This document shows, piece by piece, positions 16,853 through 22,202 of a DNA stretch of 64,000 nucleotides. How positions within the stretch are numbered: position 1 is the stretch's first letter; every line of letters starts with the position of its first letter. Location of the stretch: contig NC_016633.1 in NCBI RefSeq assembly GCF_000236685.1, forward strand, positions 2,418,001-2,482,000, written 5' to 3'. The notes under the pieces were generated by a model. The model worked only from the letters and a program-made list of their open reading frames with translations. It searched no databases and was not told the DNA's origin. The DNA is from Sphaerochaeta pleomorpha str. Grapes (lineage in GTDB: Bacteria; Spirochaetota; Spirochaetia; Sphaerochaetales; Sphaerochaetaceae). The position numbers and the translations under genes were made by a program.

Positions 16853-17313
16853 GTAAGTTGCTTTTTCAACCATCTATTGCACTCCGTAAACGATAAAACC
16901 AAAAAAAAATATAAAATTAACACTGTGAGATGTGGCGGCAAAGTTGAGAAAAATGACAAAAAGCGGGAAAATAGATAAGTCATTTAGTACAAACTCCTTG
17001 TTACTTCTCACCATTTGCTTTGTTTTACCATCCCATTCAAGTTTTTAATTTTGACATAAGGCGCATAGTTTCAGAGAAACACCTTTTCGTCGCTGCCTTG
17101 TTGTTACCTACGACATACCTTAAAGAAAATGTACCGAAAGCTAGTTCCTGTATAGGATTGGCAGGTTTCTTGTAGCCAGTTGTGTCTTTTATCTGCTGGA
17201 TTCTCTCCAAAAAACCTATAAAAACAAGGATGCTATGTCACAATCGAAAGGGCAAAAGTCATTTGAAATATGACATAAATGTATATATAATAAAAATTTA
17301 AAAAAAATTTGAG
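16853..17313. other. AT-rich intergenic region upstream of the mreB operon
   Basis: About 460 bp with no plausible gene on either strand. The antisense reading frame at its left end is the shadow of the MATE gene. A small GTTG/CAAC hairpin with a T-run lies just past the MATE stop (about 16863-16876). A-rich tracts at 16898-16916 and 17280-17310 flank it, the second directly upstream of the mreB promoter, where it could act as an UP element or bend. Confidence 0.45.
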
Positions 17314-17342
17314 TTGACAGCTGATACGCTCCGTGTGAGAAT
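17314..17342 (+). promoter_or_regulatory. Promoter of the triple-mreB operon
   Basis: A -35 TTGACA (17314-17319) and a -10 GAGAAT (17337-17342; 4 of 6 consensus bases) are 17 bp apart. An A/T tract lies immediately upstream. The leader is about 65 nt and ends with GGAGAAATATT before the first ATG. Confidence 0.6.
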
Positions 17343-17411
17343 CACCCTAGAGTTTTTTCTGGAGACAAAAATAAACGAAGGGGTGGAAAATGAAAACTAT
17401 GGAGAAATATT

Positions 17412-18434
17412 ATGGATAAAAACAATCTATCTGTTGGTATTGATCTCGGGACGTCGAACTTGCTTATCTATGTCGAAGGTCAAGGCACTCTCTTTAATGA
17501 GCCTTCGATTATTGCCATCGACAGGGCAACAAAGAAAGTCATCTGTGTAGGCAATGATGCTGCCAAGCTTGTGGGAAAAACCCATGATAAATTTGATGTA
17601 ATCAGACCTCTCCAGGGGGGCGTGATTTCCGATATCAACCTGATTCAGGAAATACTTCTCTTTACACTCAACAGGATTTTTTCATCTGAAATCGGTGTAA
17701 TAAAAAAACTCGTCATTTGTATCCCTTCAGAAATTACAAACACGGAAAAAGAAGCAATTGTCGAACTCGGGCATAACCTGGGAATTGAGAATACGATCAT
17801 CGAGCAAGAGATCAAGGCCGCCGCCTTGGGTTCCGGGATCGATATTTTTGCCCCGAAGGGCTATATGATTGTGGATATCGGGGGTGGTACCACCGATTTC
17901 GGCATTCTTTCGCTAGGTGATGTGGTTTTATCCAAATCGATCAAAATTGCCGGCGATTATTTCGACAAACAGATTATAGACCATGTCAAACTGATCCATA
18001 AGCTGGAAATCGGTTTGCAGACCGCAGAAGAAACAAAAATCCTGCTTGCTTCCCTTACAGGTCCCTATCCTACAACCGAGGAGGGGGAAACCCTTTCCTA
18101 TGAAGCAATGGGCCGGGATTTGATCACAGGGTTGCCCCGCAGTACGATCATCGGAGCAAAGGAAATCAGGGAAGTCTTGCTCAACTGTTTTGACCCCATC
18201 AAATCCGTGTTGCTTTCGACCCTCGAGGAAACTCCTCCTGAGCTTTCCGGAGATTTGGTAGATTCAGGGATTCTTCTTTCGGGAGGATGTTCCCAGATTC
18301 CTGGCTTGACAACGTATATCGAAGAAATTGCAAAAGTACCGGTTCGCCTCTCAGAGGTTCCTCTTACTGCAGTAGTCGATGGATGTAAGAAGTTGCTGAA
18401 AATGACAAGCAAATACTTCTATAGCGAAGTATAG
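17412..18434 (+). CDS. mreB: MreB-type bacterial actin, paralog 1 of 3
   Basis: 340 residues, full MreB length. Actin-fold ATP motifs are complete: phosphate-1 GIDLGTSNLL (residues 9-18), connect-1/phosphate-2 region VDIGGGTTDFGIL near 155, the adenosine motif GILLSGGCSQIPGL near 292, and the MreB-specific TPPELSGDL near 277. MreB polymers lie under the inner membrane and direct cell-wall synthesis or shape. This copy is the most diverged of the three (E-S-G-T-type insert GPYPTTEEGETLSYE near 222). It is first in a three-gene operon and has no mreC/mreD neighbours. Confidence 0.93.
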   Translation: MDKNNLSVGIDLGTSNLLIYVEGQGTLFNEPSIIAIDRATKKVICVGNDAAKLVGKTHDKFDVIRPLQGGVISDINLIQEILLFTLNRIFSSEIGVIKKLVICIPSEITNTEKEAIVELGHNLGIENTIIEQEIKAAALGSGIDIFAPKGYMIVDIGGGTTDFGILSLGDVVLSKSIKIAGDYFDKQIIDHVKLIHKLEIGLQTAEETKILLASLTGPYPTTEEGETLSYEAMGRDLITGLPRSTIIGAKEIREVLLNCFDPIKSVLLSTLEETPPELSGDLVDSGILLSGGCSQIPGLTTYIEEIAKVPVRLSEVPLTAVVDGCKKLLKMTSKYFYSEV

Positions 18435-18450
18435 GTCTAAGGAGATCGCA

Positions 18451-19485
18451 ATGAAAACAAATACTTCCAATACTAAAGAGCGAATCGGACTTGGCATAGA
18501 TCTGGGAACCGCAAATCTTTTGGTCTATCAAGAAAAGAAAGGAATCATATTCAACGAACCCTCTGTAATTGCTTTCGACCGAGAATCAGGGCAAGTTGTC
18601 GCCGCAGGAAACGATGCACATCGTATGTTAGGCAAGGTGCACTCAAAGATCGCCGTGATCAAACCGCTTCGAAACGGGGTTATCTCGGATATGAGGGCAG
18701 CCAAAGCCTTGCTCACCTATGTCCTTTCGAAAATCGACAATCTGACAGACAAGGATATGGAACGCACGACCTGTGTTATCTGTTGTCCTTCAGAGGTAAC
18801 GAAGATTGAACGGGACGTCATGGTTGATCTTGCTGCAAAAATGAAGATTGAAGATGTTTTCATAGAAGAGGAGATCAAATCCGGTTTGCTCGGTGCCGGG
18901 ATTGATATATTCATGTCCAAGGGGACTATGATTGTTGATATCGGAGGAGGAACCACTGATGTGGGAATACTTTCCTTTGGTGATATCGTTATCTCAAGGA
19001 CGGTCAGGAAGGCAGGCAATTTCATGGATGATGAGATTACCAAGTATGTCAAGAAGACCAGGAACGTTGAAATAGGTGAGCTTACCGCTGAGCGGATCAA
19101 GCTGGAATTGGCTGATTTACACGAGAATGCCAAGTCAAATACGTTCAAATATGCTGGGCGTGACATGGTAAAGGGTATTCCCAAGTGGTTTGAACTCACT
19201 ACCAGTGAAATGCAGGAGATCCTTTTCCCCATTTTTGACGAAATCGTAAAATTGGTTTCTGCCGTGTTGAAGGATACTCCTCCCGAGCTTTCCGCAGATA
19301 TTTTCCGCAATGGTATTTTGCTCAGTGGTGGTTGTTCGCTCATCAAGGGAATCGAACAATATGTTGGAAAGCGAATTCAGGTGCCTGTTCATGTTGTCTC
19401 GAATCCCCTGACTTGTGTGGCTGAGGGAACAAAGTATCTCATAAAGAACCGGGGAGATTATCTCGTGAACCCGCTTCAAATGTAG
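18451..19485 (+). CDS. mreB: MreB-type bacterial actin, paralog 2 of 3
   Basis: 344 residues with the same set of motifs: GIDLGTANLLVYQ (residues 14-26), VDIGGGTTDVGIL near 165, TPPELSADI and GILLSGGCSLIKGI near 290-305. About ten extra polar residues precede the fold, with no obvious amphipathic membrane-anchoring helix. AAGGAG lies before the ATG and only 16 bp separate it from paralog 1. Its KKTRNVEIGELTAERIK segment is closest to canonical MreB. It is probably co-polymerising with, or specialised relative to, its neighbours; that is inference. Confidence 0.93.
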   Translation: MKTNTSNTKERIGLGIDLGTANLLVYQEKKGIIFNEPSVIAFDRESGQVVAAGNDAHRMLGKVHSKIAVIKPLRNGVISDMRAAKALLTYVLSKIDNLTDKDMERTTCVICCPSEVTKIERDVMVDLAAKMKIEDVFIEEEIKSGLLGAGIDIFMSKGTMIVDIGGGTTDVGILSFGDIVISRTVRKAGNFMDDEITKYVKKTRNVEIGELTAERIKLELADLHENAKSNTFKYAGRDMVKGIPKWFELTTSEMQEILFPIFDEIVKLVSAVLKDTPPELSADIFRNGILLSGGCSLIKGIEQYVGKRIQVPVHVVSNPLTCVAEGTKYLIKNRGDYLVNPLQM

Positions 19486-19497
19486 GAGTAAGCAATC

Positions 19498-20568
19498 ATG
19501 GCATTTTTGAAAAGTAAACAAGAGAAGAATACTGAATCCGAAAAACAGGAAAAGAAAGTAGTAAAGGCAAAGAGCATCGGGATTGACTTGGGGACAGCCA
19601 ACCTATTGGTCTATGTAGAGGGAGAAGGGGTTGTTATCAATGAACCCTCGGTCATCGCCTTTGATTATGAAACCAATGAAGTAATCGCAGTCGGGCAGAT
19701 GGCTGCCGATATGGTAGGCAAAGGTCACCAGGGAATCAGGATTGTAAGTCCTCTTACCCAAGGGGTGATCTCTGATATGGAAGCTACCAAGAAAATGATT
19801 GAGATTTCCCTGCATAAATCGGAAAATCTATCCCTGAATCTTTCGGAATCCACCCTGTTGCTCTGCTGTCCCTCGGAAGTGACTCAGCTTGAAAGGGATT
19901 CCTTCAAGGATTTGGGAAATCGGCTCAAAGTAAAGGATATTTTCATTGAACAGGAAGTGAAGGCAGGGGCTATAGGTTCCGGATTGGACATTTTCAGTAG
20001 CAATGGAAGTATGATTATCGATATTGGGGGAGGTTCTACCGATATTGGGGTCCTGTCTTTAGGTGATATTGTCGTTTCCGAATCCAACCGTGTCGCAGGG
20101 AATTATTTCGATAGCGAAATAATGAACTACATGCAATATACCCATGGGCTTCTTATCGGTAAAAGAACTGCCGAGCGGGTGAAGATGGAGATCGGTTCAT
20201 TACGGGAAGTAATCGAGACCCCTCGGTTGACACATGTAAACGGAAGGGATGTTATGACAGGGCTTCCCAAGAAAATCACTATCGATGAGACTGAGATACG
20301 TGATGTACTTACAAAGCCTTTCGAGAGCATTTCCAATCTTATTCTGAAAGTCTTGCAGAATACCCCTGCAGAGCTTTCTGCCGATATCATTGTCAATGGG
20401 ATTGTCGTCAGTGGTGGTGGAGCCCTAATCGATGGTATCGATGAATTTTTCCATAATCGTATCGGAATGGATTTCTATATTTCCAAACGCCCCCTGACCG
20501 CAGTCGTAGAAGGGACTAAACTCTTGCTCAAGAACAGGGGAAGCTATTTTGTGAAACCGGTTGAATGA
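19498..20568 (+). CDS. mreB: MreB-type bacterial actin, paralog 3 of 3
   Basis: 356 residues. A highly charged N-terminal extension of about 28 residues (KQEKNTESEKQEKKVVKAK) precedes GIDLGTANLLVYVEGEG. The other motifs are intact: VDIGGGSTDIGVL-like IDIGGGSTDIGVL near 177, GLPKKITI, TPAELSADI and GIVVSGGGALIDGI near 305. TAGGAG precedes the ATG 12 bp after paralog 2. The extension replaces the short amphipathic start typical of MreB, which may change membrane binding. The gene is followed by a hairpin terminator, closing the operon. Confidence 0.93.
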   Translation: MAFLKSKQEKNTESEKQEKKVVKAKSIGIDLGTANLLVYVEGEGVVINEPSVIAFDYETNEVIAVGQMAADMVGKGHQGIRIVSPLTQGVISDMEATKKMIEISLHKSENLSLNLSESTLLLCCPSEVTQLERDSFKDLGNRLKVKDIFIEQEVKAGAIGSGLDIFSSNGSMIIDIGGGSTDIGVLSLGDIVVSESNRVAGNYFDSEIMNYMQYTHGLLIGKRTAERVKMEIGSLREVIETPRLTHVNGRDVMTGLPKKITIDETEIRDVLTKPFESISNLILKVLQNTPAELSADIIVNGIVVSGGGALIDGIDEFFHNRIGMDFYISKRPLTAVVEGTKLLLKNRGSYFVKPVE

Positions 20569-20598
20569 TAGGGGTCCAAGTACTTTGTTTTGCAATAT

Positions 20599-20646
20599 AA
20601 CAAGGGACACTTTCTTCAAAGCGTGTTTGCGGATAGTTCCCTTGTT
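20599..20646 (+). terminator. Terminator after the mreB operon
   Basis: AACAAGGGA (20599-20607) pairs perfectly with TCCCTTGTT (20638-20646). A smaller CAC-TTT/AAA-GTG hairpin lies inside the loop, and TCCTTTACTTCTT follows. It separates the mreB genes from the EAL gene. Confidence 0.6.
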
Positions 20647-20726: not shown

Positions 20727-22202
20727 ATGAATGAAAAGAAGCGTATATTTTTTGGGGGCACGGGTTTTTTTTCCTTTGGGCTCATACTGGGCGGATACTT
20801 GTTGGAAATTCCCCTGATTGCCATCGGCAGTTTGTTTCTTGCCGTAAGCCTTATAGGCCTTGTTGCTTGCCGGAAGACCAGAAAGCAATTCTTCCAAAAC
20901 AATTCTTTTTCCAATCTATCGAAGCTTTGTGAAGAGCAGGTCAGTGGAATGTACTGTCTTTTCATTGAGACAATGCCCCTGCACTATTACCAGGAAGTTC
21001 TGCAATGCTCTGTCATGGAAAAATACCTGCATGCTGCCCATAAGAAATTATGTTCCTATTTTGGAGAAGAGAACGTCAGAAGATTGTCAGTGAACCAGTT
21101 CGTGGTCCTGAAGGACTTCAACTTTGATAAAATTACGGACTATGCATACCGAGACCGGTTTTTGGAAAAGATTACCAATTCCATATCATTGGAACTTTCC
21201 GTTCTCATCCCAAGCTCTGAAAGGGAACGAATGATGGTAAACAACCTGGTTGTCGGTGCTGCTGCCTCCGGCCTGCGATATCAGGTACGCAATGCCGATG
21301 AGTTGATAGAACTCGCATTCTTTACCATGAAATGCGCCCAGAAACAAAACAGGCGCTATCTCGTCTCGGACGAGAAAATCAGGGCAACCAAGTTGAACAA
21401 TGACGAATGCAGGGAAGGTTTCCTCCAAAAAGACTGGATCCAGGAATTCAATCCCTTTTTCCAGCCGATTATCGACAGCGAGACTTTTCGGGTTGTGGGT
21501 TTTGAGAGCATGGCCCGCTGGCAATTAGGGGGGATGAGAATCCTCGAGGCAAAGGTCTTCAAAGATTTGGCGGAGGATATGGATTATATGCATATCATCG
21601 ACCTAGCCATTATCAAAAAGAGTTTTCAGATGGCAGAAAAGCTCCATCTGGAGAATGTTGTTCCCCAGCGATTCCTTATTGTCATAAATATAAGTGAATC
21701 CTCTATACATACCCTTCCGGCCTCACAGTTGAAGTCGCTTGCAAAGGAATATGGCTTGGATCCCTCGGATATCGAGCTCGATATCAAGGACAGTGCCCTG
21801 TCCAACCCGATGCTTGCCATCAATATCCAGGAATTCCGCAAGCAGGGATTCCGCATAGCCTTGGATGTCTTCGACAAAGAAGCCTTTGATTTGAATGCCA
21901 TGTTCCTCAACCATTTTGATACGATGAAACTGAATTATTCGCTCTATTCAGATACGTATACCGAACAGGGCTTTTTTGGGAGCAAGATATATTCTGCGCT
22001 TGTGGCCCTATCCTCATCACTTTCCATTAAGCCCCTTGCGAAGGGAATCGAGAATAAGGTTCAGATGCATGCGGCCAAGAACCATGGGGTCAGCTACCTG
22101 CAGGGGAATTATTTTTCCTCTCCTGTTTCACAATATTACTTTGAAATATTCGTTAAGAAATATCAGGATGGCCTGTTTTTGGAAGCATATTCCCTGGCCT
22201 AA
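20727..22202 (+). CDS. Membrane protein with a degenerate EAL (c-di-GMP phosphodiesterase-like) domain
   Basis: About 491 residues. Two N-terminal helices (residues 8-50) are followed by a GGDEF-like-sized linker without a GGDEF motif and a C-terminal EAL-type domain from about 235. The signature is ESM (GFESMARWQ) instead of EAL. The DDFG motif reads DVFD, the KID motif KLN, and the AEGVE motif AKGIE, so several Mg2+ and catalytic residues are missing, although the QG motif (LQGNYFSSPVS) remains. It is therefore probably a c-di-GMP sensor or a structural relic, not an enzyme. The ATG at 20727 has GGTGGGG upstream; the frame also opens at a TTG at 20667. Its 3' end overlaps the LuxR gene on the opposite strand by 4 bp. 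Confidence 0.82.
   Translation: MNEKKRIFFGGTGFFSFGLILGGYLLEIPLIAIGSLFLAVSLIGLVACRKTRKQFFQNNSFSNLSKLCEEQVSGMYCLFIETMPLHYYQEVLQCSVMEKYLHAAHKKLCSYFGEENVRRLSVNQFVVLKDFNFDKITDYAYRDRFLEKITNSISLELSVLIPSSERERMMVNNLVVGAAASGLRYQVRNADELIELAFFTMKCAQKQNRRYLVSDEKIRATKLNNDECREGFLQKDWIQEFNPFFQPIIDSETFRVVGFESMARWQLGGMRILEAKVFKDLAEDMDYMHIIDLAIIKKSFQMAEKLHLENVVPQRFLIVINISESSIHTLPASQLKSLAKEYGLDPSDIELDIKDSALSNPMLAINIQEFRKQGFRIALDVFDKEAFDLNAMFLNHFDTMKLNYSLYSDTYTEQGFFGSKIYSALVALSSSLSIKPLAKGIENKVQMHAAKNHGVSYLQGNYFSSPVSQYYFEIFVKKYQDGLFLEAYSLA

Follow-up and report, generated by a model that had tools for sequence, protein, structure and literature searches.

We analysed a 64,000-nt window of the Sphaerochaeta pleomorpha str. 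Grapes chromosome (positions 2418001–2482000 on one contig of the complete 3.59 Mb genome), focusing on three adjacent mreB paralogs, here named M1, M2, and M3 in operon order, and on a fourth gene immediately downstream that encodes a predicted membrane protein with GGDEF-like and EAL-like domains. We refer to M1-M2-M3 as the trio and to the trio plus the fourth gene as the block (Table 1).

Table 1 Features of the block and its flanking signals, in window coordinates.
Feature	Position	Strand	Support
Best sigma-70-like promoter match, TTGAAA-17-TATAAT	17263..17291	+	Motif scan, 11/12
Second promoter-like site	17314..17342	+	Motif scan, 10/12 matches
mreB paralog M1, most divergent, 340 aa	17412..18434	+	PF06723 MreB_Mbl, 5e-105
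mreB paralog M2, 344 aa	18451..19485	+	PF06723 MreB_Mbl, 1.5e-110
mreB paralog M3, lysine-rich N-terminal tail, 356 aa	19498..20568	+	PF06723 MreB_Mbl, 4e-113
Hairpin then U-rich tract, between M3 and fourth gene	20599..20646	+	-20.2 kcal/mol, z -3.2
Membrane protein with pseudo-GGDEF and pseudo-EAL domains, 491 aa counted from the ATG at 20727; frame open upstream to 20667	20727..22202	+	EAL PF00563, 1.9e-36

The original prediction of three complete MreB genes in a single operon was confirmed: each protein matches PF06723 over its full length and also scores above the cut-off of the NCBIfam MreB model NF010539, and the genes are separated by gaps of 16 bp (M1–M2) and 12 bp (M2–M3). That prediction overlooked the fourth gene, which is part of the same unit. 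The nucleotide motifs DLGT[SA]N, DIGGG[TS]TD, and SGG[CG] are kept in all three proteins, and the catalytic glutamate of each aligns with E131 of Thermotoga maritima (Tm) MreB; the ATP site is thus intact throughout, as had been proposed. Pairwise identities among M1, M2, and M3 of only 44.6, 44.5, and 48.0% indicate that they are old paralogs. The charged N-terminal extension of M3, previously put at about 28 residues, is real (~25 residues, K-rich), but its length is not conserved, ranging from ~14 to 31 residues in most orthologs. Promoter-like sites in the region as a whole are no more frequent than in shuffled sequence. The hairpin downstream of M3 is a possible terminator or attenuator that a simple terminator scan did not pick up, and no RNA element was found in the region.

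The predicted structure of the fourth protein (predicted local distance difference test score, pLDDT, 81.5) comprises two N-terminal hydrophobic transmembrane (TM) helices followed by GGDEF-like and EAL-like domains, with folds matching the GGDEF-EAL proteins MorA, PA0575, LapD, and FimX-type proteins in the PDB. Pfam detects only the EAL domain, and neither a HAMP domain nor a periplasmic output domain accompanies the two short TM helices that precede GGDEF. Residues needed for catalysis have been lost in each of the two phyla in which we found the block (Spirochaetota and, as described below, Bacillota): the GG of the GGDEF site is lost in 13 of 13 aligned rows of the motif table, as are the second D of the EAL-domain motif DDFG and the first E of AEGxE, which has become xKGxE (E-to-K). 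Positions retained are the EAL glutamate, N, the first D, K, and Q. This pattern suggests that catalysis has been lost and the ligand pocket possibly kept, making the protein a putative receptor for cyclic di-GMP (c-di-GMP). The ligand is likely available, since the carriers encode many GGDEF proteins. With 4–23 GGDEF matches in the Bacilli carriers, we ruled out a scenario in which izemoplasmas lack c-di-GMP and the EAL protein is purely structural. None of the four proteins had a PADLOC match that would indicate an anti-phage role.

The trio accounts for all MreBs of the complete genome; the two other PF06723 matches are a 654-aa frame that is DnaK by sequence and a 426-aa frame that is FtsA by its position in the ftsA/ftsZ cluster. 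A search for MreC across 81 genomes of the order gave no match, and eight control genomes were positive. A single SEDS gene, lying within an mraY-ftsW-ftsA-ftsZ cluster, scores best against FtsW models, leaving no RodA in addition to FtsW in this genome. The single class-B penicillin-binding protein (PBP) scores 278 bits with SpoVD-type models and 185 bits with PBP2, all below cut-off. The earlier expectation that no elongasome set would be encoded elsewhere in the genome held for mreC and for a second SEDS gene (mreD and rodZ were not searched). The host is nevertheless not free of peptidoglycan synthesis: Sphaerochaeta carriers have 4–5 Mur ligase matches together with FtsW and the PBP. The same wall gene set occurs in members of the order with and without the trio, which indicates that this machinery is independent of the trio. 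Sphaerochaeta has been described as lacking penicillin-binding proteins, in contrast to the class-B PBP gene seen here (L054:6110-7792, i.e., G000:C1:636110-637792). One genus of the order (g8) showed no Transpeptidase match at all.

Within the order, the trio is present in 14 of the 81 genomes, comprising 12 of 16 genomes of the window's genus and two of three of one other genus, and no MreB of any kind was found in the remaining 67. A family model of the fourth gene scored 529–639 bits in all 14 trio genomes and found no member in the other 67, where generic EAL proteins reached at most 163 bits. Because the genes are neighbours, this co-occurrence reflects co-inheritance as a block and is not independent functional evidence. 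Wherever a Sphaerochaetales locus extends far enough, the EAL membrane protein gene comes after the trio, and the outer neighbours vary by species. Spirochaetes outside the order that have an intact MreB always carry a single copy, scoring 445–520 bits compared with 351–378 for the trio (149-genome phylum sample).

Two complete, related genomes differ by the presence or clean absence of the block. The flanks of a ~5.8 kb segment in one complete genome (G057) sit 273 bp apart in another (G056) and are ~84% identical between the two, marking an empty site. Between-species nucleotide homology of carrier loci stops at the block edges, and the block occupies several chromosomal contexts. No integrase, transposase, or terminal (inverted) repeats were seen at its ends. 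Carriers and non-carriers are interleaved in a DnaK tree that requires six changes, a count in which losses and repeated transfer are not separated. One metagenome-assembled genome (MAG; G062, loci L051 and L052 on contigs C216 and C148, and L053) contains two non-identical M1 copies on contigs that both end at the same point in M2, which suggests either that this genome carries the operon twice or that the bin is mixed. Large surface proteins lie beside the block in two species (L040:12510-14534 and L039:12993-17576, with ice-binding/Big_2 domains and YDG/MBG repeats).

The same four genes occur in Bacilli. A contig scan with M3, whose patterns (GIDLGTAN) are biased towards ordinary-clade MreBs, for that reason returned only these, mostly from Bacillota; true Bacilli orthologs were recovered with an M1 model in a class-wide search that was seeded from a 'Tenericutes' MAG. 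Ten Bacilli genomes have exactly three adjacent MreBs, with M1 proteins scoring 511–572 bits against the M1 model and everything else at most 370. The four-gene block is found at these loci (L226–L235), with the fourth gene upstream in one (L233) and off the contig end in two. Identities between Bacilli and Sphaerochaeta are 62–68% for M1, 72–78% for M2, 63–73% for M3, and 27–32% for full-length versions of the fourth gene. An M1 ortholog is present in 14 of 90 genomes of the Izemoplasmatales-type order to which the carrier G301 belongs; G301 is putatively Xianfuyuplasma coldseepsis zrk13, an Izemoplasma described as coccoid, non-motile, and without a cell wall (PMC8397711). Nine of the ten Bacilli carriers have at most one weak Mur-ligase match and no SEDS gene, which fits wall-lessness, and the tenth (G354), which does not belong to that order, has one SEDS gene and six Mur-ligase matches. 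That all carriers are wall-less is thus ruled out by G354 and by the wall genes of Sphaerochaeta. Contamination as the source of the shared operon was also ruled out, given complete single-contig carriers in both phyla and differences of 22–38% between orthologous MreBs.

Related loci show further arrangements. At L240 (G268:C1:374001-390000), an M2-like, an M3-like, and an EAL-like gene are followed by one for a 343-aa protein without a Pfam match, and this unit, a shortened relative of the block, is duplicated in tandem. A protein of 880–884 aa is encoded after the block at L226, L227, L229, L231, and L232, with no Pfam match in the one checked (L232). At the Haloplasma-like loci L237, L238, and L239, a protein of ~620–630 aa, which matches PIN-like domains weakly if at all, is encoded between MreB pairs.

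A maximum-likelihood (ML) tree of 68 rows, with which a 113-row tree agrees, places M1, M2, and M3 of Sphaerochaeta each with its own Bacilli counterpart (support 100/100, 100/100, and 100/99, respectively). Haloplasma-like Bacilli copies are further sisters of the M2 and M3 clades, and a 100/100 branch sets the ordinary-type MreBs of walled bacteria, including those of spirochaetes, apart from the multi-MreB Bacilli and the trio. Approximately unbiased (AU) tests reject both a single clade of all Sphaerochaeta copies (p=4e-4) and a grouping of the trio with other spirochaete MreBs (p=1e-37). The tree, which includes Spiroplasma and spirochaete paralogs as the original prediction had called for, places the origin of the three paralogs outside this spirochaete.

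The suspected tie to Spiroplasma-type MreBs was borne out by similarity searches as well as by the tree, where the trio groups with wall-less, Haloplasma-like, and Spiroplasma MreBs. With phmmer against PDB sequences, the best match is Spiroplasma MreB3 for M1 (275 bits) and MreB5 for M2 (279.5 bits) and M3 (294.7 bits), and these outrank the MreBs of what we take to be Thermotoga, Geobacillus, and Caulobacter for all three proteins (the Spiroplasma origin of the matched entries is likewise our assignment). One-to-one orthology with Spiroplasma MreB3 and MreB5, although hinted at by phmmer, is unsupported by the tree, and we do not claim it because the Spiroplasma copies form a clade of their own. 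The nesting of the Sphaerochaeta copies suggests that Bacilli were the donors and Sphaerochaetales the recipients. This direction is likely rather than proven, because the root of the multi-MreB part of the tree is unsure and long branches are present; overall, we regard our evolutionary account of the block as very probable.

We propose that an mreB1-mreB2-mreB3-pseudoGGDEF/EAL module arose among multi-MreB, largely wall-less Bacilli (Izemoplasmatales/Haloplasma-like) and travelled in one piece into Sphaerochaeta and a second, related genus of an order that had lost mreBCD. In these hosts, three ATPase-competent, non-redundant MreBs would form mixed or layered filaments beneath the inner membrane that act without an elongasome and would supply mechanical support or confer curvature or contractility. 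In place of MreC/RodZ, the two-TM pseudo-GGDEF/EAL protein would be the membrane partner of the MreBs and may relay a c-di-GMP signal to filament assembly through binding rather than catalysis. The proposal starts from the observed gene content, MreB orthology, co-inheritance of the fourth gene, missing elongasome genes, empty site, and degenerate catalytic motifs. We assign the explanation as a whole, whose mechanism is drawn from these comparisons, a probability of roughly 0.6. An MreB cytoskeleton independent of wall synthesis is, on this analysis, somewhat favoured. A c-di-GMP-linked membrane anchor for the MreBs is a more tentative suggestion, and we are similarly cautious about the fullest version, in which a self-contained, horizontally mobile cytoskeleton module of three co-evolved MreBs, exchanged between wall-less Bacilli and walled diderm spirochaetes, uses a catalytically dead GGDEF-EAL c-di-GMP receptor as membrane anchor and regulator and its mechanics are free of peptidoglycan synthesis. 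Spiroplasma MreBs offer a precedent for filaments that work without wall synthesis in wall-less cells (PMC9710875, PMC12337190), and partner MreBs regulate one another (PMC12337190).

Some of our observations weigh against this proposal. The frames of the fourth gene in two carriers (L233 and L235) are without TM helices. Its adjacency to the trio reflects co-inheritance rather than contact, and in the window species the hairpin parts it from M3. The block is absent from related species and so is dispensable, and a wall-linked role is possible because Mur ligases, FtsW, and a PBP are all encoded in Sphaerochaeta.

Such a role would have the MreBs still directing wall synthesis, recruiting FtsW/PBP or MurG plus lytic enzymes in place of an elongasome. 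The retention of Mur ligases, FtsW, and one class-B PBP in carriers, and of Mur ligases and a SEDS protein in the Bacilli carrier G354, speaks for it, yet Izemoplasmatales carriers keep the whole module with at most one weak Mur ligase match and no SEDS gene, MreC was not found, and non-carriers have the same wall set, so that we consider it unlikely. We find it slightly less likely still that the trio is a motility machine replacing flagella, whether Spiroplasma-style or contractile as in Haloplasma, as the original prediction had suggested. Its sequences are akin to Spiroplasma and Haloplasma-like MreBs, and a minimal cell without a wall becomes helical and swims when given a pair of Spiroplasma MreBs (PMC9710875). 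However, the donor-type carrier, putatively X. coldseepsis, is described as non-motile and coccoid (PMC8397711), motility genes are absent from non-spiral spirochaetes with and without the block, and the wall and outer membrane of Sphaerochaeta would oppose helicity switching. Most flagella-less relatives have neither an MreB nor the block, which therefore cannot be a general substitute for flagella, and this part of the earlier interpretation is unsupported.

A comparably low probability attaches to the reading that the fourth gene serves c-di-GMP signalling on its own and is only a passenger beside the MreBs. Its much faster evolution (27–52% identity, compared with 62–88% for the MreBs) and the hairpin separating it from M3 in the window species would fit that account; against this, it stays with the block in two phyla while the flanking neighbours differ completely, it is kept both in a changed order (upstream, L233) and by a two-MreB version (L240), and its active-site motifs have decayed in the carriers of either phylum. 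An origin of the trio by duplication of a native spirochaete MreB, also implied earlier, would explain the tandem arrangement and ~45% identity of M1–M3 but is rejected by both AU tests and by the separate Bacilli ortholog of each gene; the trio came as a set, and we give this origin almost no weight.

Multi-MreB cytoskeletons of wall-less bacteria are already known. What appears to be new is the pairing of the trio with a pseudo-enzyme in one module, the presence of this module in a diderm that has a wall, and its movement between phyla. The open literature on Sphaerochaeta and MreB contained nothing on the trio, and wider searches listed no paper whose title describes a comparable transfer or pairing; articles on the phylogeny of Spiroplasma MreBs behind subscription were not covered. 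Roles of MreB apart from guiding wall synthesis are known mainly from Spiroplasma, whose five MreBs are hard to separate. A compact set of three MreBs with a membrane pseudo-enzyme in free-living bacteria (Sphaerochaeta and Xianfuyuplasma), including a round, flagella-less spirochaete, offers a natural test of bacterial actin function without a wall-building machine, and because the block is dispensable, relatives with and without it can serve as natural controls. Our results also indicate that a whole actin cytoskeleton of bacteria can move between phyla in one piece. The possible link between c-di-GMP and MreB would, if true, make this the first MreB cytoskeleton under direct control by a second messenger.

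The module resembles several known systems in part. Like the Spiroplasma MreB1-5 swimming cytoskeleton, it has several diverged MreBs without an elongasome, belongs to the same large clade, and finds its closest solved structures in MreB5 and MreB3, but it has three MreBs plus a pseudo-GGDEF/EAL partner, a walled diderm host, and no known motility. Haloplasma-like sets (G260, G296, G306, and G324; the label is unconfirmed) contain M2-like and M3-like copies sister to those of Izemoplasma and Sphaerochaeta, whereas they have no M1 ortholog and no adjacent pseudo-EAL gene was seen in them, and their MreB genes occur as alternating pairs. With the canonical MreBCD-RodA-PBP2 elongasome, the trio shares the MreB fold and ATP motifs; it differs in having three MreBs of another clade in a host without MreC and a second SEDS protein. 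The fourth protein is comparable to the LapD/FimX-type c-di-GMP receptors in its dual degenerate GGDEF-EAL domains, predicted membrane anchoring, and matching folds, but has only two N-terminal TM helices, without a HAMP or periplasmic output domain, and is genetically tied to MreBs. RgsP of Rhizobiales is likewise a membrane GGDEF-EAL protein with a degenerate GGDEF domain; the bacteria that need it to grow have no MreB, and growth promotion does not require its EAL domain. Unlike the fourth protein, RgsP is active as a phosphodiesterase, carries a large domain in the periplasm, and acts in wall synthesis rather than with MreB (PMC6107284).

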